64,000 nt of DNA. It comes from Malania oleifera. Lineage: Eukaryota; Streptophyta; Magnoliopsida; Santalales; Ximeniaceae. The DNA is taken from contig NC_080423.1 of assembly GCF_029873635.1 (NCBI RefSeq), positions 96,250,953 to 96,314,952 of the forward strand. Reading direction: 5' to 3'. A program made the position numbers and the translations under genes. Under the pieces are notes generated by a model that made no database searches, was not told where the DNA came from, and saw nothing but the letters and a program-made list of their open reading frames with translations. Positions 15,408 through 42,643 of the stretch are shown here, piece after piece; position 1 is the stretch's first letter; each line of letters begins with the position of its first letter.

Positions 15408-20513
<5,106 letters not shown>

Positions 20514-20570
20514 ATACTCACTGAGCAATTAACTTTGATGGTGTGTGCTTCAACCCTTGCTCAAGCTCTC

Positions 20571-21459: not shown

Positions 21460-22461
21460 TGTAGTGATCCTAAAAAAGAATTAAAAAATAAAAATAAAAA
21501 TTAAATTAAATAATTATTATTATTTAAATAATATATATAAGTAAGTTAAGTCCTCAAGGAATTTAATTCCTTTAGGAAGAAGCATCTGCTGCGCCTCTCT
21601 TCAGTCTCTCTCTACGTTTATCTCACTCCAGTCGCCATGCCTTCTCTCTCTCTTTATTTTCACGGCAAATATTCGGTTGATCGAAAAGCGGAAAATACTC
21701 TTGGGTTCCGTTCTCCGCCACCGACATTCCTACTGGAGTGAATTTTTCATTGGAGCGACATAGGCACCACTCCCGGGATAAGGTATACTCCCTCTCTTTC
21801 CTCAATTTCTCCCTAAATTTTTAACTGAATCAACGATTGGACACCACCATAGGGTCCTAGCTCCGATCCTCATCATTTTGGCCAGAGCAAATATTTAATT
21901 GGGGGTCGTAGACACTACTCCAAAGCGAGGGTGAGATTCAGGGAATTAAGAAAACTGATTATTTTTTAGAGTTTAATTGTTTATCAGGAATTTATGGGTC
22001 TAGAAAATGTTAAAATAATATTTTTATTTAGGATTGATTGATTAAATTAGGGTTATTGAATTAGGGTTCGGGTGAGCGCCGCAGGCATCGTTTTGGGGTC
22101 CCTGTTGGCATAGTCTTTGGAAACTAGGTAAGGGGAATAGATTAAGCAAGTTGACTTGTAAATTTCACCATTTAAAATGCAAATTATGTGTATATAAATA
22201 TATACGATTATCATGCGAGTTTTAAAAGAAAAGCCAATAGTTTGAACTGTGGTTTTTGAGCCTAAGATTATAGTTATTATTTGTGAAAATGGAATGATAA
22301 AAGTAATGGATTTTTTTGGTAATTGTGGAGATAATTTGATGTGTATTTTCAATAAATATGATGTTGAATATGGGTTGGCTTACTATTTTATTGAGATATA
22401 ATTATGCGTATTATTTGAAATGTGTGGCATGAGTAAAATGAAAATATTGAGTTGAGTTGTG

Positions 22462-22501
<40 letters not shown>

Positions 22502-24018
22502 CATATTGGAAATACTGAAATGTGTTGGGATTATATTGCATGTGTATTGTTAATCAGAGCTGGATGTGAATGTTAAATTGTAATGTATGATTTGATAACT
22601 CCAGTGCATAGTGAGGCACAGTACTATTGCATATGATTTTGGCAGAGCTTAGTGCACCCATACGTCTCATGGAGAGTGTGGAGATGGGATAGTCGATTGT
22701 GCTGTATAGGGTAGAGTTCCCCCTAGAGTCTAGACCAGTGTGGGAAAGCTAATCTAATTTACATACTAAAGAGGTTGTTTTATGATTTAACTATGGTCTG
22801 CCGACAAGGGTTAAGTCCAGCCTTCAGGCCACACAACCCGTTATGGTAGTGAGTTCTAAATGCAAAATTATTTAATTTAACCATTGAATAAAATGAGAAC
22901 ATAATGTGTGAATGTAGACATGAATACAAAGTAGCATGAAATCTAAGTAATGTGAAATGTAAATGTGAAATACGGATGATGTGAAATGTGGAAGTGAGAT
23001 TCACGTAATGTGAAATGTGGTGAATTATGTGATGTGAAATACTGAAAACATGAAAAGATAAGGAATACAGAGATAACAGATACAGAGTAAAGTAAATATG
23101 TATTATACATTGTAGTATTATATATATTTGGGACTAAGTGTACTCTCTGCCCGAGGGCTTGCTGAGAAAGGTGAGTGTCCTGATTAAAATTAGATGTAGC
23201 CATACTGGGTTGCCTAACGTATTAGGGTAGAGGTAAACTACTTATATGGGTGGGTAATCTTCTCTATTCTCGGAAACTTCTGCTAGTAAACATTTGTGTG
23301 AGTGTGTGTGAGTACGAGATGAACTAACCACCTGAGGGTTTATTGAGTAAGGTAAGTGCCCTGATATGCTTCAATTGTAGCCATGGGTTGCATAAGGTAT
23401 CAGAGTAGAAGGGTGCTACTTGTATGGGCGGATAATCATCCAAATCCTTGGGAACTCTCATTAGTAAAATATTTTGCATGTGTGTGAGTAGGGACAGAGA
23501 TAGGTTTCATAACTGTGATAATTTTATAAGTGGTGATTATATTTTGTACACTTAACTTCATGATAGCCACACACTAGTACAAATCTATTCCAACTTACTG
23601 AGATGTGTCTCACCTAATATGAATTCTATCTTTTTTAGCACCTCCGCGTGATTGAGCTCAATGAGCTCGGGGCTGGTGTAGCGTTTTTTTAGGGAGAAAG
23701 GCTATAGACTTTTGGATGTATATATATTTTTGGGTTTGTTTAAGTTTTTTGGGATGTATAAATGCATACATGTTTGTCAATACTGGAAGATGGAAAAATA
23801 CCTTTTGAGATTAAAGATATGTAGAAACTCTAGTATATTATTGAGGAGTTGTCATTATTCCCACTACGTAATTAATGTGAGAATATCAAATATAGGTGAA
23901 TGGAACACGTGGCACCCGACCCCCACTTGGCGGGTTTGGGGCGTCCCAAGGTGCAGTGGTACCAAAGATATATTTTAAATAACACTCCAAACCCTAGTTT
24001 CGGGTTCGAGGTGTAATA
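21460..24018 (+). mobile_element. Element T: 5' LTR (Tekay-like Ty3/gypsy)
   Basis: Starts TGTAGTGATCC and matches the LTR at 40007-42643 along its length, with numerous substitutions. The end is mutated (GTGTAATA instead of GTGTTACA). Flanks of the whole element carry a perfect ATAAT duplication (21455-21459 and 42644-42648). The LTR holds a (TA)n run at 22468-22499 and an internal duplicated block of about 180 bp (23145-23480, each beginning GAGGGCTT or GAGGGTTT and ending near TAGTAAA). The same organisation occurs in element D. Confidence 0.9.
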
Positions 24019-24033: not shown

Positions 24034-24357
24034 ATTAGGTTTTAGGTTCTGCAGACTTAGTGATGATAAATACTAGATTATAGGAACATATGACAATAAG
24101 GATAGGAATTGGGTAGGCTAGGTGTTGAGAGTTATAGGATGTTGTCTTGTAGCTTGGAGGCGAAAGTCCACCGAAGGCTTTCTGTGATTTTTCTGAAGCA
24201 GTCAATGGTTTCAGAAAAACCATGGCAAATCTTAGATGATTTTTGTTTCTAAGCTGTAGTATTGGTCCTTAAGTTAGAGATTTGGATGTATATTGGATTT
24301 TAGTTTAATGATTGTGTTGAGTAGGTTATGATAATGGAAATCTTAACTCTTTTCTGT

Positions 24358-25239
24358 CCTATTTTTAGGATGGATCCTAGGGGTGAGGATGTAGAGGTTG
24401 AAGGAAGAGATGACTCGGAGACTTCTAGTGAGGAGGATTTTGATACCACCACAATGTTGAAGGGTATAGTCCGACAGGTTAGGGCAGAAATGAGGAAAGA
24501 TCCTAGAGAGCAAAACTACCTAGCTGTAGATCAGGGTTGTAGCATCAAGGAGTTCATGAGGTTGAACCCTCATACTTTTGAGGGATGACCTGATCTAGTG
24601 ATTGCAAAGAACTAGGTTCAAGAAATTGAGGAGATAATGGAAGTACTTGGCTGCATGGACGAGAAGAAGGTCCGTTATGTCGCGTTTAAGATAACATGAG
24701 ATGTGAAACGTTGGTGGCTTTCTGTGAAGCTGTTGAAAGAACAGAGACTGGTAAAGGTGGCACTGACATGGGATCGGTTTAAGGAGCTGTTCTTTGCTAG
24801 ATATTTTCCCTTGTTTACCAGAGAAGAAAAGATTGAGGAGTTCACCAACTTGACATAGGGGAGTATGATTGTCAAGGATTATGCAACCAAGTTCCTCAAA
24901 CTATCACGTTTTGCTCCATTTCTGATCCTGAATGAGGCAAGGAAGGCCAGAACGTTTGAAAAAGGCCCATGACGAAAGATCTATGAACTTGTGATGGGAT
25001 TCCAAGTCCAGAATTTCTTAGACTTGGTGGATAAGGCCTCGGTACTGGAGAAGATCTTGCAGGGAAGTACAGAGCTATCAGAGCAGAGAAAGAGGCCTAC
25101 ACCTCCCAGTTTTTAGGCTGAGGCTAGTCAGGGCTCATGGAAGAGGGAGAGATAGATATGGGCCCGAGGCAGGAGGCGAGAGATTGGGGTTATTCTGGTT
25201 ACCAAGATGAATTATTTTACCTTGTAGCACAGGGGTGAA
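24358..25239 (+). pseudogene. Element T gag, 5' portion, interrupted by element W
   Basis: Begins ATGGATCCTAGG at 24370 and encodes an acidic N-terminus followed by SIKEFMRLNPHTFEG, then, through several stops, RWWLSVKLLKEQR, WDRFKELFFARYFP and KLSRFAPF, the conserved core of chromovirus gag. In-frame stops (the first just after FEG near 24586) show it is dead. The frame breaks off at 25239, where element W is inserted, and resumes at 39638 with the zinc knuckle. Gag forms the particle in which reverse transcription occurs. No pol domain exists on either side of the insertion. Confidence 0.85.
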
Positions 25240-28091
25240 TGTGATGACCCAAAAAAATATATATATATGATTAAAGTACAATAATAATAAAATAATAAAA
25301 ATAGTCATTAAGTTAATATCAATACAGAAGTGTTTTTCTGTAGGATCCTTGATTCCATGTTTGATGCCTAAGAAAGACCTTGTCTTAGCGAGTGCTCAGA
25401 GACCATTGCGGCTCAGTCGCTCCCTGGAGGTCGGCCTGGTCAAAATAGAATTTCATAGGATAAACAGGATAGATACTGTTTGTATACGTAAATAAGTATA
25501 TATACATAAAATAGTGTTTTGACAGACATAATTTGTAGAAATACATAATAAGATGATAATAATATAGGTATCATATGTGGGGCCCACAAGATTATGTGGG
25601 GTCCACATGAGTCCCGGAGCCACAAGACACTGTTTATATACGTAAATGAGTACATAAAACAATGTTTTAACTGATATAATTTGAAGAAATATATGATAAA
25701 ATAATAATAATATAGGTATCCTATGCGGGGCCCACAAGACTGTGTGGGGCCCACATGAGTCCCGAAACCGTATGAAGGTTTTCACAAGTCTCAAAACTAT
25801 GCAGGATGCATAAAATCGTATAAGAGTTATTGGAATTACGTACGATCCATTTGGGTCTCAAAATTGTGTGGGGCCCACAAGACTACATAGGGCCCACAAG
25901 ACCATGTGGGGCCCACATGAGTTTTTAAAATTTAAATTTAATTCTTGTTCAAAAATAAAATAAAATAAAATAAATACTAAATATAGTTTAAAATTAATAA
26001 CAATGATAATAATAATGATTAAGAAAAATAATAAAATAATAAAATAATTAGTTAGGTAATGGATTAATTAATAAGGTAAGTAATTAATTAAAAATTTATT
26101 TAGTGAGAATGGTGGCAAACACTCCCAAATGGCCTCCACTCAAGTTTAAAATTAATAACAATGATAATAATAATGATAATAATGATTAAGAAAAATAATA
26201 AAATAATAAAATAATTAGTTAGGTAATGGATTAATTAATTAGGTAAGTAATTAATTAAAAATTTATTTAGTGGGAATGGTGGCAAGCACTCCCAAATAGC
26301 CTCCACTCAACCCATACCTTGCCCATCCCTTGCCCATTCTTTAATTTTTAAAATTATAATTTCACCCATCTCCCCACACTTTTATAAATTCTATTTCTTC
26401 CCCAAAATTTTCCTATAAATAGGGAGCTCTCAACCTTCATTTTTCACAACAATTTTCCAAGGAAGAGAAGGATTAGTGAGTGAAAGAATTTGTGGTGGAG
26501 AGAGAATTTTTGAATAAATTCTTAATCACCCACTTTTTCTGATCTCATTTCTTAAAGATAATTATTGTGTTCGTAGCACACGGTAAAAGAAGAAGGTAAA
26601 TAAATTTGATTATGTTAGTATTTTTATTCAAAATTTATACCCGAGTTTATTTGTAAGTAAATTTTGATTATGTTAGTTTCTTTTTTATTTAAAATTCATA
26701 CCCGAGTTTATTTTGTAAGTAAATTTGATTATGTTAGTATTTTTATTCAAAATTTATACCCGAGTTTATTTGTAAGTAAATTTTGATTATGTTAGTTTCT
26801 TTTTATTTTAAATTCATACCCGAGTTTATTTTGTACGTAAATTTTAATTATCTTACTTAGTTCCACAAAATTTCCATGAGTTTATTTTTACGCATATTTA
26901 ATTATACCAGTTCTATCTTTAATATACTTGCATCTATTTTTGGGTTAAGAAATGTTCCAATCCCCTCGGGTAAATTTTCAGCATTTCTTTCTATTCAAAA
27001 ATAAAATTATATATATTTTTAACACAAAAATTGTGTGGCATGAGTTTATTTCTACGTTACATTTTTTTTATGTAAATATGAGTAAAGATGAGATTTTCAC
27101 GATATTATTTTAAATTGCATAAATTATAATAAGATGATTTTCAAACCCCTTATGGCAACGAAAGTTCAAAGTTACAGATGCTCGGTACCGCAGCTTAAAG
27201 TTTATACGGATCAGAGTGCACCCACACTGTTTACAGAGTGGTTATTTATGTTAGTGGATTTCTCCTGAGTGCACACCTGGTTTAAGTCCAGGACTTAATA
27301 AGGAAAATCTCACTTAAAGTTTACGTACGTTGATTTAGTTTGGTCGGCCAGCCAGCTAAGTCCAGTCTTCGGACCGCACAACCCAGTCATGGGGGTAAAC
27401 ATGACTTACGGCAAAAAGGCCTAAGGGTGGTTTTTATACTATATGTTTATACATATTTAATTACGTATACAAGTTACTGATGATTTGAAGGAAAAGTATA
27501 AGTTTACGTGAAAAGGATCATTCTGGTGCTTAAATGACGATCTAAGGAAAACGTATAAGGAAAAGTATATGTATGTTTATCATTAAATGTTTTTACAGTT
27601 TTAAAGTTAAAAGTTTAATTTAACAGTTATAATATATGATTATAAAATTTACTGTTGAAATTGATGACAAAAGTTTTATGCAGAAATTTTTAAATTTATA
27701 TTTATTCTAAAAGCAGTCTTGAAGTTATATTATTAAATATTGTTTTACGAAATTCTTTAAAAGCTCATTTTAGCCACACACTAATAATAATCTTATTTAC
27801 TTACTGAGCGTCGTCTCACCCCAATCATATTTTATTTCAGATAACTCTGAAGGACATGTCGGAAATCAGGCTTAACAAGCATGCGGGTGGGGATTAGAAA
27901 AAATAAAGATTTATTAGAAATATAGTATGATTTCAGATATTTACGTTTGTGTAATTTTCTTCTTTTGAAATAAGTGATTGTAACATGAATAATTAGCGCT
28001 CTGGTTTAAATAAAATTGAGTTTATTTGCTTCCGCTGTAAATCAGTAGTAAAAAGTTAATATCGCAGGCCCCTCGGGGTCGGGGTGTTACA
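25240..28091 (+). mobile_element. Element W: first LTR (2852 bp)
   Basis: Runs from TGTGATGACCC to GGGGTGTTACA. The five bases before it (GTGAA, 25235-25239) match those after the third LTR (39633-39637). In U3 there are seven GTGGGGCCCAC-like palindromes (25575-25920). A TATA box CTATAAATAG lies at 26413-26422. Four copies of a unit of about 60 bp containing ATACCCGAGTTTATTT lie at 26596-26850. The 104- and 113-codon minus-strand frames in it are not considered genes. Confidence 0.95.
26413..26422 (+). promoter_or_regulatory. TATA box of W LTR 1
   Basis: CTATAAATAG followed by GGAGCTC, the probable promoter of the element's genomic RNA. Identical boxes lie at 32185-32194 and 37953-37962 in the other two LTRs. 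Confidence 0.75.
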
Positions 28092-28093
28092 TT

Positions 28094-28105
28094 TGGTATC
28101 AGAGC
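28094..28105 (+). other. Primer-binding site of W, internal region 1
   Basis: TGGTATCAGAGC two bases after the LTR end, matching initiator methionine tRNA. The second copy is at 33867-33878. Confidence 0.85.
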
Positions 28106-28323
28106 AATAGGTTATAGGTTCTGTAGACTTTAAAGAAATAATTTTACCAGAGCATAGGATATAGGTTCTGCATAATCTAATATATAAATTTTATCAGAGC
28201 ATAGGTATAAAATATGATTTGGGTAGGATTGGGTAGTTTAGAATATTTATTTTAGTTTGTTATATTATTATACGTTAATAATAGATTTATGATTTTAAGA
28301 TAACATTTGATCATTATTTAAGA

Positions 28324-28389
28324 ATGGATCCTAAAGATAGTAGTATTGGAGGAAATGAGATTTACGTGAAGGCTCCCAATGACAGGTAA
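28324..28389 (+). pseudogene. Vestigial gag start in W, copy 1
   Basis: ATGGATCCTAAAGAT opens a 21-codon frame (MDPKDSSIGG...) that ends in TAA. It lines up with the gag start of element T (MDPRGEDVEV) and sits at the same distance after the primer-binding site. It is the only trace of the retroviral genes in W. The same 21 codons, with one silent T-to-C change, occur in copy 2 (from 34097). The frame ends on CAG-GTAA, which resembles a splice donor. Confidence 0.6.
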
Positions 28390-29185
28390 TAATTATAAAT
28401 TCTCTAAGAAAAATAGTAGTATTATTGAAGACACGTTAATTAATTTAAATATGTTATTTATGTTTGTAGAAACACGTACCCATATTAATGATTTATAATT
28501 AATTGTCAAATGCATTAATAATTTAAATTTTTTTTTTATATATAAATATAATAATAATATCTGAGATTTAATTATTTTCACTATTGTTATTTTCACTAAA
28601 TATATAAGAAATAACCCATTAAACCCTACCGAATTTAGAAGTGCTACACATACAAATAGATATGAACAAACGGTCTATTATGAAATCTGAATTTACCCAA
28701 AATTTCTTTGCATGTATAAGTTGGATATGAATATGTATTTTTTTTTTACATCACATATTCAGTTATCAACAGAACATTCAAGCTTAATTTAGGAAAATAT
28801 ATTTTAGCAAAATCTTTAATTTTAATTTTGTATTAGTATATAAGGAATTAAATATCATTTAAATATTACTTATTATATTTAAATTCAATATATATATAAT
28901 CCCTTAGCATGTGCAAGTTAAATATGTATATCTATTTTTTTTCCCATTACATATTCAATTTCCATCAAGTATCCAAGTTTAATTTAGGAGTACAAATTTT
29001 GATGAAACCTTTAATTTTGTATAAATTTATAAAAGTTAATACAACTTAAAATTTTCTATATAAAAAAAAAAATATACATATATATTTTTTTAATGAAAGC
29101 AATATAAAAATTTACTAATTTCTTTCAAATAACTAACCAATGTCAAATCATCAATTGGCAAAACATGCCCAACATATATTTGATC

Positions 29186-29231
<46 letters not shown>

Positions 29232-29278
29232 AATGTTAATGGAATATATATATAAAAGGGGTACTCTTGTAGTTATAA

Positions 29279-29446
29279 AAAAAAAAAAAAAAAAGGGGCC
29301 TCATGGGTGGAAATCATTGGCTATAGCTCACTTACCCCCGAAGCAAGGTCAGGGCATGAGACCACTTGGGCGTAGTGGGGACTCGAACCCGCGATCACAT
29401 GGATGCACGGCCGGTTCCTTACCACTAGGCCACCCACCCAAGTGGT
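29279..29446 (-). mobile_element. tRNA-derived SINE in W, copy 1
   Basis: On the minus strand it starts CACTTGGGTGGGTGGCCTAG and has an A-box-like GGCCTAGTGGT and a B box GGTTCGAGTCC (complement of 29379-29389), the two halves of an RNA polymerase III promoter. It ends in a T-rich tail (A run on the plus strand at 29279-29294). No clear target duplication was found. The tRNA-like part does not fold into a convincing tRNA, so it is a SINE rather than a tRNA gene. Confidence 0.75.
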
Positions 29447-29536
29447 GATCTAAGGATGAAATTAATTATAGTTAAAGCATTAACAAAGATGTAAAAACAT
29501 AAAAATAACCTAGAGTTTGCAAATTTTGCAATACGT

Positions 29537-29898
29537 GTCACTCACTCAATTTCCGTGACACATGTCGCTATCCCTTGATTTGTGCAAAACGCGTTGCTCA
29601 ATATCTGTGACACGCGTCGCTTTCTCTCGATTCTTGTGACACACGTCGTTCTCCCTCGATTTGTGCAAAACGCGTTAATCGATATCTGTGACACGCGTCA
29701 CCCCCTCTCGGTTCTCACGACACACATCGTTATCCCTCGATTTGTGCAAAATGCGTTGATTGATATCCATGACACGTGTCGCCCTCTCTTGATTCTCGTG
29801 ACACATATCGTTCTCTCTCGATTTGTGCAAAATGCGTTGCTCGATATCCGTGACACACGTCGCTCTCTCTCGATTTCCACAACACGCGGTCATCCCCT
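29537..29898 (+). repeat. 81-bp tandem repeat array upstream of WOX, copy 1
   Basis: Four full units start at 29577, 29658, 29739 and 29820, exactly 81 bp apart, with partial units on the left. Each has GATTTGTGCAAAACGCGTT, then TGACACGCGTC or TGACACGTGTC, then GTGACACACGTCG. Thus each unit carries several ACGCGT/ACGTGT palindromes that resemble CAMTA (CGCGTT) and G-box (CACGTG) sites. The array ends at the TATA box of the WOX frame. Since 81 is a multiple of three, it stays open in frames on both strands; I take it as promoter, not protein. Confidence 0.85.
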
Positions 29899-29908
29899 TA
29901 TAAAAAGG
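29898..29908 (+). promoter_or_regulatory. TATA box of WOX copy 1
   Basis: TTATAAAAAGG, 117 bp before the WOX ATG and immediately after the 81-bp array. It suggests that WOX has its own promoter, independent of the LTR promoter at 26413. Confidence 0.65.
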
Positions 29909-30024
29909 GTACGCCCTCCTCGAACTCTAAGCATCACAGTTTTCTATCATCTTGAACAATCACATTTCGGTTTGTAGTGATTAGCTCTTCCCAACTTGTC
30001 TCTTAGTTGTCTCATTACTCGAAA

Positions 30025-30717
30025 ATGTTGCCAAATCACCCAACTCCCGAAGTTGCTGAGAGCAGCACTAGATCGTCGATTCAAAGATGGAAACCCGGTA
30101 AGGCACAGCTGGAGATTCTAGAGGAGGTCTTCCACAACAGTCAAGGGGAACTCCCTTCAGTGGAGCAGACTATCTTGCTTGCAGCACAACTTCGACGGTA
30201 TGGTCCAATCGAGCCGAAAAATATACGCTTTTGGTTTGAGAACCGTAAGCGTAGGCGGGGATCAGTTGGAGAAGCCACTATTTCAACTACTGCCCCAACA
30301 ATTCTCCATATCACTTCCTCCGCCACTACCGACCCAAGCAGTGCCCCTGCCATTCTTCCAACCCTCTTCCCTATCGAGAATATTCCGACTGTGAAACTTA
30401 CAACTAATATCTCACCAATGAGCCATATCCCTTACAATGGCAATATCGCAGTCACCACACTAAGGGTTTCGGATAATGCTGGCTTACTTCACCATTTCAA
30501 GGAAACCCGATTCGCAATGAGACTCATATATGGGCCACCAATAACTCGGGAAGAGAGCAGCTCTTCCTCCTTCGCCGAACAAATGGGCGTCCTCTCCCTT
30601 TTTCCAACCCAAGCCGGCGACATTATAAGAGGTCAACTCTGCCAAGAAAGAACCCAAGCGGTTAGCAGTGACACCGCTAGTACTGCGATAGATGTTGACA
30701 TTGATCTAAGGCTCTAA
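30025..30717 (+). CDS. WUSCHEL-related homeobox (WOX) protein, copy 1, carried by retrotransposon W
   Basis: WOX proteins are plant transcription factors that control stem cells and early patterning in the nucleus. The 230-residue frame has a WOX-type homeodomain at about 17-79: RW at 21-22, LEILEEVF in helix 1, the extended loops of this family, YGPIEPKN, and recognition helix RFWFENRKRRR (68-78). VLSLFP (189-194) resembles the WUS box and the C-terminal DIDLRL (225-230) an EAR repression motif. Together these point to the WUS clade. Position 50 of the homeodomain, normally Gln (WFQN), is Glu (WFEN). There are no introns, unlike host WUS-clade genes, which fits capture through RNA. The ATG at 30025 is the first in frame; an upstream TTG at 30007 was rejected. 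It occupies the place of gag-pol between the PBS and PPT of W. The intact frame suggests selection or recent capture. Confidence 0.85.
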   Translation: MLPNHPTPEVAESSTRSSIQRWKPGKAQLEILEEVFHNSQGELPSVEQTILLAAQLRRYGPIEPKNIRFWFENRKRRRGSVGEATISTTAPTILHITSSATTDPSSAPAILPTLFPIENIPTVKLTTNISPMSHIPYNGNIAVTTLRVSDNAGLLHHFKETRFAMRLIYGPPITREESSSSSFAEQMGVLSLFPTQAGDIIRGQLCQERTQAVSSDTASTAIDVDIDLRL

Positions 30718-31012
30718 AGGCCAGATCTCGTATATTTTTATTTATTTATAGGACATGTATAATATATATACATATATATAATTATCCTTTTCCACATCTT
30801 CTGAATTTCTTTTCCATTTCAACCACTATTAGACCGACGATTCACACTTCAATTCCCAAAATAAAATACATCGTCAAATTGACCCTCAATCTATTCTAAG
30901 ACTTAATTAAATCATTAATCAATTTACTCTTTCTAATAGTGCAAACCAATTATACAGTACTCATTTTAAATTAGCAAATTTCGAGGACGAAATTTTTATA
31001 AGGAGGAGAGAT
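30718..31012 (+). other. 3' flank of WOX copy 1 and polypurine tract of W
   Basis: AT-rich 3' region, then the conserved Tekay-like block TTTCGAGGACGAAATTTTTA (30980-30999) and the polypurine tract AAGGAGGAGAGA just before LTR 2. Confidence 0.7.
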
Positions 31013-33864
31013 TGTGATGACCCAAAAAAATATATATATATGATTAAAGTACAATAATAATAAAATAATAAAAATAGTCATTAAGTTAATATCAATACAG
31101 AAGTGTTTTTCTGTAGGATCCTTGATTCCATGTTTGATGCCTAAGAAAGACCTTGTCTTAGCGAGTGCTCAGAGACCATTGCGGCTCAGTCGCTCCCTGG
31201 AGGTCGGCCTGGTCAAAATGGAATTTCATAGGATAAACAGGATAGATACTGTTTGTATACGTAAATAAGTATATATACATAAAATAGTGTTTTGACAGAC
31301 ATAATTTGTAGAAATACATAATAAGATGATAATAATATAGGTATCATATGTGGGGCCCACAAGATTATGTGGGGTCCACATGAGTCCCGGAGCCACAAGA
31401 CACTGTTTATATACGTAAATGAGTACATAAAACAATGTTTTAACTGATATAATTTGAAGAAATATATGATAAAATAATAATAATATAGGTATCCTATGCG
31501 GGGCCCACAAGACTGTGTGGGGCCCACATGAGTCCCGAAACCGTATGAAGGTTTTCACAAGTCTCAAAACTATGCAGGATGCATAAAATCGTATAAGAGT
31601 TATTGGAATTACGTACGATCCATTTGGGTCTCAAAATTGTGTGGGGCCCACAAGACTACATAGGGCCCACAAGACCATGTGGGGCCCACATGAGTTTTTA
31701 AAATTTAAATTTAATTCTTGTTCAAAAATAAAATAAAATAAAATAAATACTAAATATAGTTTAAAATTAATAACAATGATAATAATAATGATTAAGAAAA
31801 ATAATAAAATAATAAAATAATTAGTTAGGTAATGGATTAATTAATAAGGTAAGTAATTAATTAAAAATTTATTTAGTGAGAATGGTGGCAAACACTCCCA
31901 AATGGCCTCCACTCAAGTTTAAAATTAATAACAATGATAATAATAATGATAATAATGATTAAGAAAATAATAAAATAATAAAATAATTAGTTAGGTAATG
32001 GATTAATTAATTAGGTAAGTAATTAATTAAAAATTTATTTAGTGGGAATGGTGGCAAGCACTCCCAAATAGCCTCCACTCAACCCATACCTTGCCCATCC
32101 CTTGCCCATTCTTTAATTTTTAAAATTATAATTTCACCCATCTCCCCACACTTTTATAAATTCTATTTCTTCCCCAAAATTTTCCTATAAATAGGGAGCT
32201 CTCAACCTTCATTTTTCACAACAATTTTCCAAGGAAGAGAAGGATTAGTGAGTGAAAGAATTTGTGGTGGAGAGAGAATTTTTGAATAAATTCTTAATCA
32301 CCCACTTTTTCTGATCTCATTTCTTAAAGATAATTATTGTGTTCGTAGCACACGGTAAAAGAAGAAGGTAAGTAAATTTGATTATGTTAGTATTTTTATT
32401 CAAAATTTATACCCGAGTTTATTTGTAAGTAAATTTTGATTATGTTAGTTTCTTTTTTATTTAAAATTCATACCCGAGTTTATTTTGTAAGTAAATTTGA
32501 TTATGTTAGTATTTTTATTCAAAATTTATACCCGAGTTTATTTGTAAGTAAATTTTGATTATGTTAGTTTCTTTTTATTTTAAATTCATACCCGAGTTTA
32601 TTTTGTACGTAAATTTTAATTATCTTACTTAGTTCCACAAAATTTCCATGAGTTTATTTTTACGCATATTTAATTATACCAGTTCTATCTTTAATATACT
32701 TGCATCTATTTTTGGGTTAAGAAATGTTCCAATCCCCTCGGGTAAATTTTCAGCATTTCTTTCTATTCAAAAATAAAATTATATATATTTTTAACACAAA
32801 AATTGTGTGGCATGAGTTTATTTCTACGTTACATTTTTTTTATGTAAATATGAGTAAAGATGAGATTTTCACGATATTATTTTAAATTGCATAAATTATA
32901 ATAAGATGATTTTCAAACCCCTTATGGCAACGAAAGTTCAAAGTTACAGATGCTCGGTACCGCAGCTTAAAGTTTATACGGATCAGAGTGCACCCACACT
33001 GTTTACAGAGTGGTTATTTATGTTAGTGGATTTCTCCTGAGTGCACACCTGGTTTAAGTCCAGGACTTAATAAGGAAAATCTCACTTAAAGTTTACGTAC
33101 GTTGATTTAGTTTGGTCGGCCAGCCAGCTAAGTCCAGTCTTCGGACCGCACAACCCAGTCATGGGGGTAAACATGACTTACGGCAAAAAGGCCTAAGGGT
33201 GGTTTTTATACTATATGTTTATACATATTTAATTACGTATACAAGTTACTGATGATTTGAAGGAAAAGTATAAGTTTACGTGAAAAGGATCATTCTGGTG
33301 CTTAAATGACGATCTAAGGAAAACGTATAAGGAAAAATATATGTATGTTTATCATTAAATGTTTTTACAGTTTTAAAGTTAAAAGTTTAATTTAACAGTT
33401 ATAATATATGATTATAAAAATTTACTGTTGAAATTGATGACAAAAGTTTTATGCAGAAATTTTTAAATTTATATTTATTCTAAAAGCAGTCTTGAAGTTA
33501 TATTATTAAATATTGTTTTACGAAATTCTTTAAAAGCTCATTTTAGCCACACACTAATAATAATCTTATTTACTTACTGAGCGTCGTCTCACCCCAATCA
33601 TATTTTATTTCAGATAACTCTGAAGGACATGTCGGAAATCAGGCTTAACAAGCATGCGGGTGGGGATTAGAAAAAATAAAGATTTATTAGAAATATAGTA
33701 TGATTTCAGATATTTACGTTTGTGTAATTTTCTTCTTTTGAAATAAGTGATTGTAACATGAATAATTAGCGCTCTGGTTTAAATAAAATTGAGTTTATTT
33801 GCTTCCGCTGTAAATCAGTAGTAAAAAGTTAATATCCCAGGCCCCTCGGGGTCGGGGTGTTACA
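31013..33864 (+). mobile_element. Element W: middle LTR (2852 bp)
   Basis: Almost identical to LTR 1. At four sites checked it agrees with LTR 3 against LTR 1: G at 31220, GGTAAGTAAA in place of GGTAAATAAA, five rather than four A before TTTACTG, and ATCCCAGG in place of ATCGCAGG. Private changes include one lost A near 31965 and AAAAATATATG near 33337. TATA box at 32185-32194. Confidence 0.95.
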
Positions 33865-34096
33865 TTTGGTATCAGAGCAATAGGTTATAGGTTCTGTAGA
33901 CTTTAAAGAAATAATTTTACCAGAGCATAGGATATAGGTTCTGCATAATCTAATATATAAATTTTATCAGAGCATAGGTATAAAATATGATTTGGGTAGG
34001 ATTGGGTAGTTTAGAATATTTATTTTAGTTTGTTATATTATTATACGTTAATAATAGATTTATGATTTTAAGATAACATTTGATCATTATTTAAGA

Positions 34097-34162
34097 ATGG
34101 ATCCTAAAGATAGTAGCATTGGAGGAAATGAGATTTACGTGAAGGCTCCCAATGACAGGTAA
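34097..34162 (+). pseudogene. Vestigial gag start in W, copy 2
   Basis: Same 21-codon remnant as in copy 1, with AGC in place of AGT for one serine. Confidence 0.55.
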
Positions 34163-34958
34163 TAATTATAAATTCTCTAAGAAAAATAGTAGTATTATTG
34201 AAGACACGTTAATTAATTTAAATATGTTATTTATGTTTGTAGAAACACGTACCCATATTAATGATTTATAATTAATTGTCAAATGCATTAATAATTTAAA
34301 TTTTTTTTTTATATATAAATATAATAATAATATCTGAGATTTAATTATTTTCACTATTGTTATTTTCACTAAATATATAAGAAATAACCCATTAAACCCT
34401 ACCGAATTTAGAAGTGCTACACATACAAATAGATATGAACAAACGGTCTATTATGAAATCTGAATTTACCCAAAATTTCTTTGCATGTATAAGTTGGATA
34501 TGAATATGTATTTTTTTTTTACATCACATATTCAGTTATCAACAGAACATTCAAGCTTAATTTAGGAAAATATATTTTAGCAAAATCTTTAATTTTAATT
34601 TTGTATTAGTATATAAGGAATTAAATATCATTTAAATATTACTTATTATATTTAAATTCAATATATATATAATCCCTTAGCATGTGCAAGTTAAATATGT
34701 ATATCTATTTTTTTTCCCATTACATATTCAATTTCCATCAAGTATCCAAGTTTAATTTAGGAGTACAAATTTTGATGAAACCTTTAATTTTGTATAAATT
34801 TATAAAAGTTAATACAACTTAAAATTTTCTATATAAAAAAAAAAATATACATATATATTTTTTTAATGAAAGCAATATAAAAATTTACTAATTTCTTTCA
34901 AATAACTAACCAATGTCAAATCATCAATTGGCAAAACATGCCCAACATATATTTGATC

Positions 34959-35004
<46 letters not shown>

Positions 35005-35049
35005 AATGTTAATGGAATATATATATAAAAGGGGTACTCTTGTAGTTAT

Positions 35050-35210
35050 AAAAAAAAAAAGGGGCCTCATGGGTGGAAATCATCGGCTATAGCTCACTTA
35101 CCCCCGAAGCAAGGTCAGGGCATGAGACCACTTGGGCGTAGTGGGGACTCGAACCCGCGATCACATGGATGCACGGCCGGTTCCTTACCACTAGGCCACC
35201 CACCCAAGTG
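35050..35210 (-). mobile_element. tRNA-derived SINE in W, copy 2
   Basis: Same insertion as in copy 1, at the same place in the internal region. It differs by a shorter A run and CATCGG instead of CATTGG. The SINE therefore entered before W was duplicated. Confidence 0.75.
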
Positions 35211-35302
35211 GTGATCTAAGGATGAAATTAATTATAGTTAAAGCATTAACAAAGATGTAAAAACATAAAAATAACCTAGAGTTTGCAAATTTTGCAATAC
35301 GT

Positions 35303-35664
35303 GTCACTCACTCAATTTCCGTGACACATGTCGCTATCCCTTGATTTGTGCAAAACGCGTTGCTCAATATCTGTGACACGCGTCGCTTTCTCTCGATTCT
35401 TGTGACACACGTCGTTCTCCCTCGATTTGTGCAAAACGCGTTAATCGATATCTGTGACACGCGTCACCCCCTCTCGGTTCTCACGACACACATCGTTATC
35501 CCTCGATTTGTGCAAAATGCGTTGATTGATATCCATGACACGTGTCGCCCTCTCTTGATTCTCGTGACACATATCGTTCTCTCTCGATTTGTGCAAAATG
35601 CGTTGCTCGATATCCGTGACACACGTCGCTCTCTCTCGATTTCCACAACACGCGGTCATCCCCT
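35303..35664 (+). repeat. 81-bp tandem repeat array upstream of WOX, copy 2
   Basis: Same four full units as upstream of copy 1, with no difference noticed between the two arrays. It ends at the TATA box 35664-35674. Confidence 0.85.
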
Positions 35665-35674
35665 TATAAAAAGG
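35664..35674 (+). promoter_or_regulatory. TATA box of WOX copy 2
   Basis: TTATAAAAAGG in the same position as in copy 1. Confidence 0.65.
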
Positions 35675-35790
35675 GTACGCCCTCCTCGAACTCTAAGCAT
35701 CACAGTTTTCTATCATCTTGAACAATCACATTTCGGTTTGTAGTGATTAGCTCTTCCCAACTTGTCTCTTAGTTGTCTCATTACTCGAAA

Positions 35791-36483
35791 ATGTTGCCAA
35801 ATCACCCAACTCCCGAAGTTGCTGAGAGCAGCACTAGATCGTCGATTCAAAGATGGAAACCCGGTAAGGCACAGCTGGAGATTCTAGAGGAGGTCTTCCA
35901 CAACAGTCAAGGGGAACTCCCTTCAGTGGAGCAGACTATCTTGCTTGCAGCACAACTTCGACGGTATGGTCCAATCGAGCCGAAAAATATACGCTTTTGG
36001 TTTGAGAACCGTAAGCGTAGGCGGGGATCAGTTGGAGAAGCCACTATTTCAACTACTGCCCCAACAATTCTCCATATCACTTCCTCCGCCACTACCGACC
36101 CAAGCAGTGCCCCTGCCATTCTTCCAACCCTCTTCCCTATCGAGAATATTCCGACTGTGAAACTTACAACTAATATCTCACCAATGAGCCATATCCCTTA
36201 CAATGGCAATATCGCAGTCACCACACTAAGGGTTTCGGATAATGCTGGCTTACTTCACCATTTCAAGGAAACCCGATTCGCAATGAGACTCATATATGGG
36301 CCACCAATAACTCGGGAAGAGAGCAGCTCTTCCTCCTTCGCCGAACAAATGGGCGTCCTCTCCCTTTTTCCAACCCAAGCCGGCGACATTATAAGAGGTC
36401 AACTCTGCCAAGAAAGAACCCAAGCGGTTAGCAGTGACACCGCTAGTACTGCGATAGATGTTGACATTGATCTAAGGCTCTAA
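35791..36483 (+). CDS. WUSCHEL-related homeobox (WOX) protein, copy 2
   Basis: The predicted 230-residue protein is identical to copy 1, with the same homeodomain, WFEN recognition helix, VLSLFP box and DIDLRL end. Upstream and downstream sequence is also nearly identical, so both copies should behave alike. The pair sits 5766 bp apart as a direct repeat. The identity could reflect a very recent duplication or gene conversion. If either copy is transcribed the other probably is too, and short reads could not tell them apart. Confidence 0.85.
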   Translation: MLPNHPTPEVAESSTRSSIQRWKPGKAQLEILEEVFHNSQGELPSVEQTILLAAQLRRYGPIEPKNIRFWFENRKRRRGSVGEATISTTAPTILHITSSATTDPSSAPAILPTLFPIENIPTVKLTTNISPMSHIPYNGNIAVTTLRVSDNAGLLHHFKETRFAMRLIYGPPITREESSSSSFAEQMGVLSLFPTQAGDIIRGQLCQERTQAVSSDTASTAIDVDIDLRL

Positions 36484-36778
36484 AGGCCAGATCTCGTATA
36501 TTTTTATTTATTTATAGGACATGTATAATATATATACATATATATAATTATCCTTTTCCACATCTTCTGAATTTCTTTTCCATTTCAACCACTATTAGAC
36601 CGACGATTCACACTTCAATTCCCAAAATAAAATACATCGTCAAATTGACCCTCAATCTATTCTAAGACTTAATTAAATCATTAATCAATTTACTCTTTCT
36701 AATAGTGCAAACCAATTATACAGTACTCATTTTAAATTAGCAAATTTCGAGGACGAAATTTTTATAAGGAGGAGAGAT
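36484..36778 (+). other. 3' flank of WOX copy 2 and second polypurine tract
   Basis: Same layout as 30718-31012, ending AAGGAGGAGAGAT before LTR 3. Confidence 0.7.
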
Positions 36779-39632
36779 TGTGATGACCCAAAAAAAATAT
36801 ATATATATGATTAAAGTACAATAATAATAAAATAATAAAAATAGTCATTAAGTTAATATCAATACAGAAGTGTTTTTCTGTAGGATCCTTGATTCCATGT
36901 TTGATGCCTAAGAAAGACCTTGTCTTAGCGAGTGCTCAGAGACCATTGCGGCTCAGTCGCTCCCTGGAGGTCGGCCTGGTCAAAATGGAATTTCATAGGA
37001 TAAACAGGATAGATACTGTTTGTATACGTAAATAAGTATATATACATAAAATAGTGTTTTGACAGACATAATTTGTAGAAATACATAATAAGATGATAAT
37101 AATATAGGTATCATATGTGGGGCCCACAAGATTATGTGGGGTCCACATGAGTCCCGGAGCCACAAGACACTGTTTATATACGTAAATGAGTACATAAAAC
37201 AATGTTTTAACTGATATAATTTGAAGAAATATATGATAAAATAATAATAATATAGGTATCCTATGCGGGGCCCACAAGACTGTGTGGGGCCCACATGAGT
37301 CCCGAAACCGTATGAAGGTTTTCACAAGTCTCAAAACTATGCAGGATGCATAAAATCGTATAAGAGTTATTGGAATTACGTACGATCCATTTGGGTCTCG
37401 AAATTGTGTGGGGCCCACAAGACTACATAGGGCCCACAAGACCATGTGGGGCCCACATGAGTTTTTAAAATTTAAATTTAATTCTTGTTCAAAAATAAAA
37501 TAAAATAAAATAAATACTAAATATAGTTTAAAATTAATAACAATGATAATAATAATGATTAAGAAAAATAATAAAATAATAAAATAATTAGTTAGGTAAT
37601 GGATTAATTAATAAGGTAAGTAATTAATTAAAAATTTATTTAGTGAGAATGGTGGCAAACACTCCCAAATGGCCTCCACTCAAGTTTAAAATTAATAACA
37701 ATGATAATAATAATGATAATAATGATTAAGAAAAATAATAAAATAATAAAATAATTAGTTAGGTAATGGATTAATTAATTAGGTAAGTAATTAATTAAAA
37801 ATTTATTTAGTGGGAATGGTGGCAAGCACTCCCAAATAGCCTCCACTCAACCCATACCTTGCCCATCCCTTGCCCATTCTTTAATTTTTAAAATTATAAT
37901 TTCACCCATCTCCCCACACTTTTATAAATTCTATTTCTTCCCCAAAATTTTCCTATAAATAGGGAGCTCTCAACCTTCATTTTTCACAACAATTTTCCAA
38001 GGAAGAGAAGGATTAGTGAGTGAAAGAATTTGTGGTGGAGAGAGAATTTTTGAATAAATTCTTAATCACCCACTTTTTCTGATCTCATTTCTTAAAGATA
38101 ATTATTGTGTTCGTAGCACACGGTAAAAGAAGAAGGTAAGTAAATTTGATTATGTTAGTATTTTTATTCAAAATTTATACCCGAGTTTATTTGTAAGTAA
38201 ATTTTGATTATGTTAGTTTCTTTTTTATTTAAAATTCATACCCGAGTTTATTTTGTAAGTAAATTTGATTATGTTAGTATTTTTATTCAAAATTTATACC
38301 CGAGTTTATTTGTAAGTAAATTTTGATTATGTTAGTTTCTTTTTATTTTAAATTCATACCCGAGTTTATTTTGTACGTAAATTTTAATTATCTTACTTAG
38401 TTCCACAAAATTTCCATGAGTTTATTTTTACGCATATTTAATTATACCAGTTCTATCTTTAATATACTTGCATCTATTTTTGGGTTAAGAAATGTTCCAA
38501 TCCCCTCGGGTAAATTTTCAGCATTTCTTTCTATTCAAAAATAAAATTATATATATTTTTAACACAAAAATTGTGTGGCATGAGTTTATTTCTACGTTAC
38601 ATTTTTTTTATGTAAATATGAGTAAAGATGAGATTTTCACGATATTATTTTAAATTGCATAAATTATAATAAGATGATTTTCAAACCCCTTATGGCAACG
38701 AAAGTTCAAAGTTACAGATGCTCGGTACCGCAGCTTAAAGTTTATACGGATCAGAGTGCACCCACACTGTTTACAGAGTGGTTATTTATGTTAGTGGATT
38801 TCTCCTGAGTGCACACCTGGTTTAAGTCCAGGACTTAATAAGGAAAATCTCACTTAAAGTTTACGTACGTTGATTTAGTTTGGTCGGCCAGCCAGCTAAG
38901 TCCAGTCTTCGGACCGCACAACCCAGTCATGGGGGTAAACATGACTTACGGCAAAAAGGCCTAAGGGTGGTTTTTATACTATATGTTTATACATATTTAA
39001 TTACGTATACAAGTTACTGATGATTTGAAGGAAAAGTATAAGTTTACGTGAAAAGGATCATTCTGGTGCTTAAATGACGATCTAAGGAAAACGTATAAGG
39101 AAAAGTATATGTATGTTTATCATTAAATGTTTTTACAGTTTTAAAGTTAAAAGTTTAATTTAACAGTTATAATATATGATTATAAAAATTTACTGTTGAA
39201 ATTGATGACAAAAGTTTTATGCAGAAATTTTTAAATTTATATTTATTCTAAAAGCAGTCTTGAAGTTATATTATTAAATATTGTTTTACAAAATTCTTTA
39301 AAAGCTCATTTTAGCCACACACTAATAATAATCTTATTTACTTACTGAGCGTCGTCTCACCCCAATCATATTTTATTTCAGATAACTCTGAAGGACATGT
39401 CGGAAATCAGGCTTAACAAGCATGCGGGTGGGGATTAGAAAAAATAAAGATTTATTAGAAATATAGTATGATTTCAGATATTTACGTTTGTGTAATTTTC
39501 TTCTTTTGAAATAAGTGATTGTAACATGAATAATTAGCGCTCTGGTTTAAATAAAATTGAGTTTATTTGCTTCCGCTGTAAATCAGTAGTAAAAAGTTAA
39601 TATCCCAGGCCCCTCGGGGTCGGGGTGTTACA
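36779..39632 (+). mobile_element. Element W: third LTR (2854 bp)
   Basis: Runs from TGTGATGACCC to GGGTGTTACA and is followed by GTGAA (39633-39637), the right target duplication of the whole W array. Private changes include an extra A near 36790, GGTCTCGAAATT near 37400 and TTTTACAAAATT near 39289. TATA box at 37953-37962. Confidence 0.95.
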
Positions 39633-39637
39633 GTGAA

Positions 39638-40006: not shown

Positions 40007-40131
40007 TATAGTGATCCTAAAAAAAATAAAAAATAAAAAATAAAAAAATTAAAATTAAAATTAATTAATTAATTAAAAACAAATTATTATTATTTAAATA
40101 ATATAATATAATATAATATAGTATTAAAATA

Positions 40132-40165
<34 letters not shown>

Positions 40166-41081
40166 AGTAAGTTAAGTCTTGAAGGAATTAAATTCCTTCA
40201 GGAAGAAACATCTGTAGCGCCTCTCTTCAGTCTCTCTCTACATCTCTCTCACTCCAGCCTCCACTCCTCCTCTCTCTCCTCATTTTTTAGGAAAATATTC
40301 GACTGATCAGAAAACGAAAAATACCACTAGGTTTCATTCTTTACCACCGACATTTCTACCGAAGTGGATTTTTTGTAAGAGCGTTGTAGGCACCACTCCT
40401 GGGGTAAGGTATACTCCCTCTCAATTCTCAATTTCTCCTTAATTTTTTGGCCAAATCAACGACTCCACCACAGGATCCTAGCTCAGATTCTCATCATTTT
40501 TGTTGGAGCAAAATTTCAATTTAGGGGTCCTAGGCACCACTCTAAAGTGAGGGTGAGATTTAGGGAATTAAGAAAACTGGTTATTTTTGGGAGTTTAATT
40601 GTTTATTTGGAATTTATGGGGTTAGAAAATGTTAAAATAGTATTTTATTTAGGATTGATTTAATTAAATTAGGGTTGTAGAATAAGGGTTCGAGTGAGCG
40701 CCGTAGGCATCGTTTTGGGGTCCTTATTGGCGTAGTTTCTAGAAATCAGGTAAGGGGAATAGATTAAGTAAGTTGACTTGTAAATTTCACTGGTTAAAAT
40801 GGAAATTATATGTGTATATAAATATATATGATTATCATGTGAGTTTTAAAAGAAAAGCCAACCGTTTGAACTGTGGTTTTTAAGCCGAGGGCTATAGTTA
40901 TTATTTGTGAAAATGGAATGATGAAAGTAATTGATTTTTTGGAAATTATGGAGATAATTTGATGTGTATTTTCAGTAAAACTGACGTTGAATATGGGTTG
41001 GCTTACTATTTTTGTGAGATATAATTATGCGTATTATTTGAAATGTGTGGCACGAGTAAAATGAAAATACTGAGTTGAGTT

Positions 41082-41129
<48 letters not shown>

Positions 41130-42643
41130 ACATGTTGAAAATAATGAAATGTATTGGGATTATACTGCATGTGTATTATTAATCAGAGCTTGATGTGAAT
41201 GTTAAATTGTAATGTATGATTTGAGAACTCCGGTGTACCATACTGAGGCACAGTACTGTTGTGTTTGATTTTGGAAGAGCTTAGTGCACCCACGCGTCTT
41301 GTGGAGGGTGTGGTGACGGGATGATTGATATGTGCTGTGTAGGGTAGAGTTTCCCCTAGAGTATAGACCAGTGTGGGAAAGCTAATCTAACATATAGACT
41401 TAAGAGGTTGTTTTCTGATTTAACTTAGGTGGACCAATCAGGGTTAAGTCCAACCTTCAGGCAACACAGCCCGTCATGGGGGGAAGCATGATAGTGACTA
41501 TCCATCTAGTGAGTTCTAAATGCATAATTGTTTAATTTAACCAATGAATAAAATGAAAACAGAATATGTGAATGCAAACATGTATACAGAGTAGCATGAA
41601 ATTAGAGTAATGTAAAATGTGGAAGTGAGATTCACGTGATGTGAAATGTGAAAGTGAATTATGTGATGTGAAATACTGAAAACATGAAAAGATGAGTAAT
41701 ACAGAGATAATTGATACAGAGTAAAGTAAATATGTATTATACATTGTAGTACTATATATACTTAGCGCGAAATGCACTCTCCGCCCGAGGGCTTCTTGAG
41801 AAAGGTGAGCGCCCTGATTAACATTAAATGTAGCCATACTGGGTTGTATAATGTATTAGGACTGAGGGAAGCTACTTGTATCGGCAACCAATCTTCCCTA
41901 TTCTTGGGAACTTCTACTAGTCAACATTTGTGTGAGTGTGTGTGAGTATGATATAAAATAATCACTTGAGGGCATACTGAGAAAGGTAAGTGCTCTAATA
42001 TGCTTTAGTTGTAGCCATGAGTTGCATAAGGTATCAGAGCAGAGGGGTGCTACTTGTATAGGTGGGTAATCATTACAATCCTTAGGAACTCTAGTTAGTA
42101 AAATATTCTGCATGTGTGTGAGTAGGGACAGAGAATGGTTTCATAACTGTGATAATATTATAAATGGTGATTATATTTTGTACACTTAACCTCATCATAA
42201 CCACACACTGGTACTAATCTATTCTGACTTATTGAGATGTGTCTCACCCGATATGAATTCTATCTTTTTCAAAACCTTCGCGTGATCGAGCTCAGTGAGC
42301 TTGGGGCTGGTGTAGCATTTTTTAGAGAGAAAGGGTATAAACTTTGGATGTATATATATTTTTGGGTTTGTTTAAGTTTTCTGGGATGTATAAATGCATA
42401 CATGTTTGTGAATATTGGATGATGGAAAAATACCTTTTGAGATTATAGATATGTAGAAACTTTGGTATGTTATTGAGGAGTTGTCATTATTTCCGATGCG
42501 TAATTGATGTGAGAATATCAAATACGGGTGAATGGAAAATGTGGCACCCGGGCCCCGCTTGGCGGGTTCGGGGCATCCCAAGGTGGTATCAGAGATATTT
42601 TAAATAACACTTCGGACCCTAGTTTTGGGTTCGGTGTGTTACA
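40007..42643 (+). mobile_element. Element T: 3' LTR
   Basis: Homologous to 21460-24018; starts TATAGTGATCC (one change from TG) and ends GTGTTACA. The following ATAAT (42644-42648) is the right target duplication. It includes a (TA)n run at about 41080-41120 and the same duplicated block as the 5' LTR. Divergence between the two LTRs is clearly larger than among the LTRs of W, so T is the older insertion. Confidence 0.9.

Follow-up and report, generated by a model that had tools for sequence, protein, structure and literature searches.

A WUSCHEL-related homeobox gene as the only recognisable gene of a mobile LTR retrotransposon family in Malania oleifera

Can an LTR retrotransposon carry a host developmental regulator as its only gene and, if so, what keeps that gene intact? 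Plants set no germline aside early, so that an element has access to it only through activity in meristem cells. The question is raised by the window analysed here, a stretch of 64,000 nucleotides from contig C7 of Malania oleifera, in which each internal region of an LTR array holds one intact, intronless WUSCHEL-related homeobox (WOX) frame; the LTR element family is termed W. If our reading is right, a selfish element would be directly using a host developmental regulator to reach the germline, a possible parallel to the animal retroviruses that acquired host growth genes.

The capture of genes by LTR elements is already known. Bs1 of maize is, like W, an LTR element moving with host coding sequence, but no Bs1 segment has a full-length ORF according to PMC13317346, whereas the W frame looks full-length and is intact through many copies. 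The passages of PMC3726574 consulted count 672 LTR-captured genes in rice, 1,343 in sorghum and 424 in maize, defined as annotated genes inside full-length elements. Like W, these are host genes within LTR pairs, some of them expressed and under purifying selection; unlike W, no case is described there of a cargo that is its family's only gene, and the terms "homeobox" and "transcription factor" are absent from the main text. A prior report of a WOX-carrying LTR element was not found in the titles and abstract openings of the literature searched, the coverage of which is incomplete.

Structure of the array and identity of the WOX frame

The array has the order LTR-internal-LTR-internal-LTR and is flanked by a GTGAA target duplication. 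The following features were mapped:

21460-42643 (+): older element, host of the W insertion and no part of W
25235-25239 (no strand): target-site duplication GTGAA, left
25240-28091 (+): LTR1 (TGTGATGACCC...GTGTTACA)
25980-26330 (+): U3 with a duplicated ~160-bp unit, TAATTA-rich; candidate role only
28092-31012: internal region 1
28092-28113 (+): primer-binding site TTTGGTATCAGAGC, directly after LTR1; also present after LTR2
28324-28389 (+): 21-codon frame, formerly "gag stub"
29294-29443 (-): tRNA-SINE-like piece, recognised by eye only
29461-29956 (+): 81-bp tandem repeats, immediately upstream of the putative promoter
29899-29906 (+): TATA-like box TATAAAAA, present in 12/12 internal regions compared
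30025-30717 (+): WOX frame, copy 1, 230 aa (homeodomain, aa 17-80; WUS-box-like motif, aa 188-199; C-terminal DIDLRL)
30986-31012 (+): polypurine tract region before LTR2; a purine-rich tract also precedes LTR3
31013-33864 (+): LTR2
33865-36778 (+): internal region 2, content as region 1 apart from 2 substitutions and a length difference in one A-run
35791-36483 (+): WOX frame, copy 2, DNA identical to copy 1
36779-39632 (+): LTR3
39633-39637 (no strand): target-site duplication GTGAA, right

LTR1 is 99.8% identical to LTR2 and 99.8% to LTR3, and W displays the paired LTRs, primer-binding site (presumably of the initiator-Met tRNA type), polypurine tract and 5-bp target duplication of an LTR retrotransposon. 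These elements and the homeodomain, all named in a preliminary description of this DNA, were borne out by the coordinates and by Pfam; the array is, however, a single insertion with two internal regions and not two independent insertions. The surrounding older element has LTRs at about 21460-24018 and 40007-42643, 85.7% alike, and a target duplication ATAAT. It is to be noted that the proof of mobility lies in copies elsewhere in the genome and not in the window array.

Neither gag nor pol could be recognised in internal region 1 among ORFs of at least 80 aa at Pfam cut-offs. Besides WOX, two frames of this size occur there, one of 102 aa in microsatellite/SINE-like sequence and one of 131 aa in the 81-bp repeats, both without a Pfam match above cut-off. 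Being without pol, W is not an autonomous element. The 21-codon frame described earlier as a gag stub does exist, but its gag identity is conjectural, since the likeness is limited to its place and MDP start and the frame was matched by pattern in only 4/12 internal regions, in one of them with an inner stop. A splice fusion of this frame to WOX (donor 28386, acceptor 30006) was rejected: joining these sites leaves the 21-codon frame in a different reading frame from WOX, and L016-L019 lack the acceptor AG. The SINE-like piece yielded nothing with ARAGORN or Rfam.

Within 29961-31000 the longest ORF reaches 230 aa, as compared to a maximum of 168 in 1000 single-base shuffles, and its homeodomain is matched by Pfam (E 4.9e-8, 33.1 bits vs a cut-off of 22.9). 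The best solved structures by sequence are WUSCHEL (8.5e-11) and then STENOFOLIA (1.9e-10), which also rank first with the predicted fold (homeodomain blocks at pLDDT 86-97; best PDB matches WUS-HD). The W homeodomain matches a profile of 28 WUS proteins and aligns to WUS without gaps, sharing the base-reading residues R38, N90 and R94. A WUS-box-like motif is present as in WUS-clade proteins, and the C-terminus is a candidate EAR-like motif. The former (GVLSLFPTQAGD, aa 188-199) is degenerate, reading VLSLFP where TLPLFP is canonical, and was equalled by 3/5000 shuffles; the latter forms the last 6 residues and is not significant by motif (PSSM) alone (2869/5000 shuffles match as well), with LRL nevertheless invariant in 32/32 intact frames. 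W differs from WUSCHEL in being only 38% identical over 64 homeodomain columns and from the WUS clade by its intronless frame, by E in place of Q89 in 31/32 intact frames and by a stem branch of 2.78 changes. In a homeodomain tree that includes Arabidopsis WOX homeodomains besides WUS, the W copies form their own 100/100 clade whose placement among WOX is not fixed. The WUS-clade assignment put forward beforehand is thus backed by the WUS-box match and the profile score but gains no placement from the tree, and on sequence grounds W WOX likely belongs to this clade. Searches of the protein database found one relative only, P0001.

Copies of W elsewhere in the genome

A further 70 loci with a W-type WOX frame were taken from the host genome. 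These copies were picked by homeodomain score (best 150 of 656 candidates), a choice that favours intact copies and hides any member without WOX. In a first set of 20 loci of 10 kb around homeodomain matches, 19 had W-type LTR sequence together with the WOX frame. Eleven of these 19 could be delimited at both ends, and 11/11 showed equal 5-bp target duplications, all mutually different, with LTR divergences of 0.07-4.1% (8/11 under 0.8%). Another 11 copies (57-96% aa identity) had the W-type 3' flank in 11/11 cases and the 3' LTR in 10/11; overall, the same LTR family surrounds the WOX frame in 29/30 loci with context read. The 40 remaining loci were W-type by protein alone (40/40).

Since each delimited copy has its own target duplication and the LTR family recurs, WOX moves with the element, and we regard it as practically certain that W is a mobile LTR family carrying WOX. 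The preliminary claim that WOX is the only recognisable gene of a mobile non-autonomous LTR element is therefore upheld. It had named a contrary case, in which all other W copies lack WOX; the copies seen, which do carry it, contradict this. The window alone, with its one insertion and duplicated internal region, could be read as a host WOX gene beside or inside an accidental LTR pair, with neither capture nor mobility; the recurrence of this LTR family in no fewer than 29 genomic copies, 11 of them with target duplications of their own, rules this out and leaves it a negligible probability.

Selection on the WOX frame and what may maintain it

The comparison of dN/dS between W copies, proposed beforehand, indicated purifying selection. 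Using NG86 on 32 intact ORFs (pairs with dS 0.05-2), the whole frame gave a median omega of 0.402 over 440 pairs, with every pair below 1. The sequence downstream of the homeodomain, outside the search criterion, gave 0.41 over 422 pairs, 99.8% of them below 1. For 4 pairs, neutral evolution was simulated with a mutation spectrum derived from the elements' LTRs: the observed omega was 0.24-0.35 as against 0.71-0.78 in simulations, and neutral runs as low as observed numbered 3/198, 0/200, 0/200 and 0/200. A weak first estimate from W vs P0001 alone, now superseded, had given 11 and 21 of 1000 neutral runs (stop-free 14%). Among the 32 intact frames, R38, W39, N83 and N90 are kept in all and R94 in 31 (residue roles from PMC7203112), as is the WUS-box core LSLF in 32/32, while backbone-contact positions drift (K82 to R in 19, K92 to R in 31, Y86 to F in 28 and to C in 3). 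Between W and the L009-L014 group, K is 0.093-0.10 in the coding frame, 0.20 in the 81-bp repeats and 0.03-0.05 in the non-coding flanks; since the flanks differ less than the frame and repeats, simple dating and dN/dS are disturbed by subfamily recombination or uneven mutability. We hold purifying selection on the WOX frame to be very probable.

Frames that are not intact make up 39 of the 70, one of them merely cut by the locus end, and none of the 39 (about 33 clean tests) has its first stop in common with the nearest copy. Rare variants common to the nearest neighbour were 2/33 for stops vs 114/367 for synonymous changes (Fisher p 0.0012), a contrast that weakens with C>T/G>A changes only (2/27 vs 61/244, p 0.052). 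Both shared stop variants come from L032 and L069, a single pair in which each is the other's nearest neighbour at 10% divergence; their common stop at codon 207 may mark a broken copy that bred. Broken copies otherwise look like dead ends with few or no descendants.

We think it probable that W, a non-autonomous family, acquired a WUS-type WOX gene in the distant past and has spread copies of it to many sites since then, with the frame under selection. Gag and pol would be supplied in trans by another element, and transcription for the WOX protein would start at the internal TATA promoter, in the LTR or at both. This protein may still bind DNA, with R38, N90 and R94 kept and Q89 changed to E, and may still recruit co-repressors through its WUS-box and EAR-like ends. 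Because copies with a broken frame appear to have little or no offspring, WOX would aid the very copy or cell expressing it. The simplest route would be action in stem cells or germline precursors, from which new insertions pass to the next generation. That WOX is selected for the element's own spread appears evenly balanced, an estimate lowered from slightly above even because one pair has a common late stop. It is a tentative proposal that selection acts through stem-cell fate or meristem expression; equally tentatively, WOX might maintain the carrying cell lineage as stem cells or germline precursors or turn it into such, or might activate its own LTR in them, and copies with a functional WOX would then be the ones that breed.

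The same observations have to be weighed under other readings. A captured WOX could simply ride along, its low dN/dS arising from mutation bias and from a sample restricted to intact frames with high scores; the choice of copies by homeodomain score, the many non-intact frames and the codon-207 stop agree with this, but the omega values lie well below those expected from the elements' own mutation spectrum, the post-homeodomain part is conserved although it lay outside the selection criterion, and nearest copies lack common first stops, which makes a mere passenger quite improbable. Purifying selection is silent on who benefits, and some W copies could serve the plant as WOX genes, conservation then reflecting these master copies, as might be expected from the expression and constraint of captured genes given in PMC3726574. 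We nevertheless consider this unlikely, as conservation extends over young insertions at unrelated sites, illustrated by the low LTR divergences, rather than few old fixed loci. Alternatively, a basic homeodomain protein could bind the element's RNA or cDNA and replace part of gag. Such a packaging role would account for selection on the same copy and for the dead-end pattern, hard to obtain with a transcription factor that acts purely in trans, and it agrees with the lack of any recognisable gag-like frame in the internal region; the WUS-box core and C-terminal LRL, needless for packaging, are however invariant in 32/32 frames, and we judge it very unlikely.

As to the origin of the gene, the suggestion that a spliced WOX transcript was captured holds insofar as WOX lies inside a non-autonomous element, but the spliced-transcript route is only a candidate. 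The captured stretch extends upstream past the TATA box, through the 81-bp repeats and the SINE-like piece, no poly(A) trace was seen by eye and the stem branch is very long, so that an old event by some other route fits equally. No closer source was found among the loci examined than the host WUS-like cluster L015, 36-39% identical to W.

Whatever its origin, the genome contains many WOX frames, closely related and possibly expressed, which annotation and RNA-seq mapping may mask or miscount. Binding of WOX to its own LTR was rejected: the classical WUS site TTAATGG occurs 0 times in the W LTR, TGAA is depleted, and many motifs were tried (12 motifs in 5 segments). TAATTA, found 9 times in U3 vs 1.4-2.5 expected and as often in 0/500 shuffles, in a unit that is itself duplicated, is a lead only.

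The W array in the window and its genomic family

The coordinates that the preliminary description had given for W proved correct to the base: three LTRs enclose two internal regions, and GTGAA flanks the array at either end. The main features of this part of the window are:

15411-20528, minus strand: GH1 beta-glucosidase gene (three exons by Pfam, first exon by eye)
21460-42643: older element, target duplication ATAAT, LTRs 85.7% alike
25240-28091: W LTR, flanked on the left by GTGAA
31013-33864: W LTR
36779-39632: W LTR, flanked on the right by GTGAA
29899: TATAAAAA box, putative internal promoter, found in 12/12 internal regions compared

Any two of the LTRs are separated by 3-5 substitutions over roughly 2,850 bases, and 2 substitutions distinguish one internal region from the other. 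Both the insertion and the duplication that made it a tandem array are therefore young: substitution rates between 1.3e-8 and 2.5e-9 place the LTR pairs at 41-351 thousand years. W was inserted in the gag-like part (judged by eye) of the older element, whose frame 24328-24585 gave no Pfam match. The beta-glucosidase gene lies about 0.9 kb from this outer element, and a Copia-type gag fragment (PF14223, 1.7e-22) is found to the right of the element at 43490-44014. A tblastn search with the annotated Malania oleifera protein LOC131144967 (P0001) detected no WOX frame in the window outside W.

The preliminary description had also proposed that WOX became a mobile gene, and further copies were indeed found. 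A whole-genome homeodomain search, through which all copies were identified, gave 656 candidates (150 scored, 506 unscored); the 74 stretches taken from the scored rows (best 150 of 656) comprised 70 W-type stretches and four other WOX loci, namely a tandem WUS-like cluster (L015) and three loci picked as probable host genes (L029-L031). The WOX frame was accompanied by W-type LTR sequence in 19 of the 20 stretches of 10 kb. Both LTRs could be delimited by script in 11 of these 19 loci, all 11 with equal 5-bp duplications, each different, and the same PBS; their LTR divergence ranges from 2 in 2,688 to 99 in 2,427. When 1.5 kb downstream of 11 further copies was read, the same 3' flank was present in all 11 and the 3' LTR in 10, one of the 11 copies being only 57% identical in protein. 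The last 40 copies, for which the frame alone was fetched, were all W-type. We conclude that W is a family and that WOX moves with the element.

Tandem arrays of W seem to form repeatedly. A second LTR-internal-LTR-internal array of the family was observed at L028 (G000:C1:68243000-68252900). The WUS-like genes of L015 (G000:C1:44654000-44663900) also form a tandem array, with a unit of about 3.4 kb, 96-97% alike; they share 55% identity with grape WUS over 132 alignment columns and are adjoined by a pararetrovirus-like protease/reverse-transcriptase frame, recognized by eye.

The WOX protein and its annotated relative

The 230-aa frame contains a Pfam homeodomain (4.9e-8), to which WUSCHEL is the closest by sequence. 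The alignment to WUS is gapless over the whole domain; among Arabidopsis homeodomains the score is 127 for WUS, 126 for WOX1 and at most 112 for the others. Profile comparison matched the protein to 28 WUS proteins with 98.2% probability, and the first structure matches of the predicted fold were WUS-HD (pLDDT 86-97 in the domain, low elsewhere). Towards the C-terminus, where WUS has its WUS-box, W carries a similar motif (3/5000 shuffles of the post-homeodomain part were as good), and the final LRL forms an EAR-like end, not significant by itself. Three of the four base-reading residues of WUS, listed as R38, Q89, N90 and R94 in PMC7203112, are kept in W, whereas Q89 is replaced by E. Backbone-contact residues drift, mostly from K to R and from Y to F, and three of the 32 intact frames have C. 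A homeodomain tree recovered the W family as a single clade with strong support and a very long stem, and did not fix the position of that clade.

LOC131144967 was the only protein relative returned (1/378 candidates, word-limited search), with 70% identity over 159 aa. An insert near its end recurs in L034, L036 and L037, which are older copies of W, and at its start 50 residues match a retroelement gag read in antisense at 51679-51828 of the window (35.8 bits, against at most 29.6 in 300 shuffles). The protein probably represents a piece of an old W-type copy that was annotated as a gene.

Selection on the frame and fate of broken copies

Pairwise NG86 comparison of 32 intact frames (29 distinct proteins, copies chosen via the homeodomain) indicated purifying selection, with a median dN/dS of 0.402 over 440 pairs with dS 0.05-2 and every pair below 1. 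The value was 0.268 for the homeodomain and 0.41 for the post-homeodomain part, which had no share in copy finding (422 pairs, 99.8% below 1). Neutral simulation of four frame pairs, with the mutation spectrum measured from 11 LTR pairs, gave medians of 0.71-0.78 versus observed values of 0.24, 0.26, 0.25 and 0.35, and runs as low as observed numbered 3/198, 0/200, 0/200 and 0/200. R38, W39, N83, N90, the WUS-box core LSLF and the last LRL are invariant in all 32 intact frames, and R94 is kept in 31. The WOX frame is kept by selection.

At one frame per locus, 31 of the 70 loci are intact and 39 are not, and in none of the 39 is the first stop common to the nearest copy. Clean tests were available for 33 of them, L028 (cut by the locus end alone), L019, L057, L073 and L077 (poor alignment) and L089 (nearest copy cut before the lesion) being set aside. 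Rare variants were common to the nearest copy in 2/33 stop-making versus 114/367 synonymous cases (p 0.0012), and in 2/27 versus 61/244 when C>T and G>A were the only changes counted (p 0.052). Both shared stops belong to L032 and L069, a single pair of copies that differ by 10% and both carry a stop at codon 207, past the WUS-box; this may reflect a broken frame that bred or a repeated change, the one such sign among W copies. A stop at codon 57 recurs in L033, L042, L062, L063 and L072, copies 2.7-12% apart, and is more likely due to recurrent deamination (C>T, one site) than to descent. Broken W copies thus seem to breed rarely or never. A trans regulator acting on all copies equally would not protect each frame, so this dead-end pattern suggests that the benefit falls to whichever copy or cell expresses WOX. 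With a WUS-type protein, such a benefit would most simply be a stem-cell or germline-precursor state.

Proposed expression, capture route and possible exchange

A W transcript running from LTR to LTR would most likely depend on the proteins of another element for its packaging and copying, and WOX could be made from the internal promoter with the TATAAAAA box; no ATG occurs between 29925 and the WOX ATG. Upstream of the LTR TATA box, a U3 duplication (25980-26330) is packed with TAATTA/ATTAATTAA, a homeodomain-type core.

The intact frames have no introns, which fits the RNA-mediated capture put forward in the preliminary description. The stretch also includes the promoter, repeats and a SINE-like piece upstream of the frame and, by eye, no poly(A) trace, so that capture at the DNA level, from a gene that already lacked introns, or assembly in steps accounts equally well for W. 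The long stem suggests that WOX parted from its relatives in the host well before today's copies multiplied. Capture of genes by LTR elements is well known from Bs1 (PMC13317346) and has been surveyed in rice, sorghum and maize (PMC3726574); a limited literature search brought up no case in which a homeobox or WOX gene is the sole gene of a multiplied LTR family.

Between W and the L009-L014 group of copies, the non-coding parts are 3-5% apart, the frame 9-10% and the upstream repeats 20%. This contrast, which argues against a simple history of W, reflects either faster mutation of GC-rich parts or a block exchanged between subfamilies. The divergence of window 29461-30717 from L009-L014 is far above that of the LTRs and non-coding flanks.
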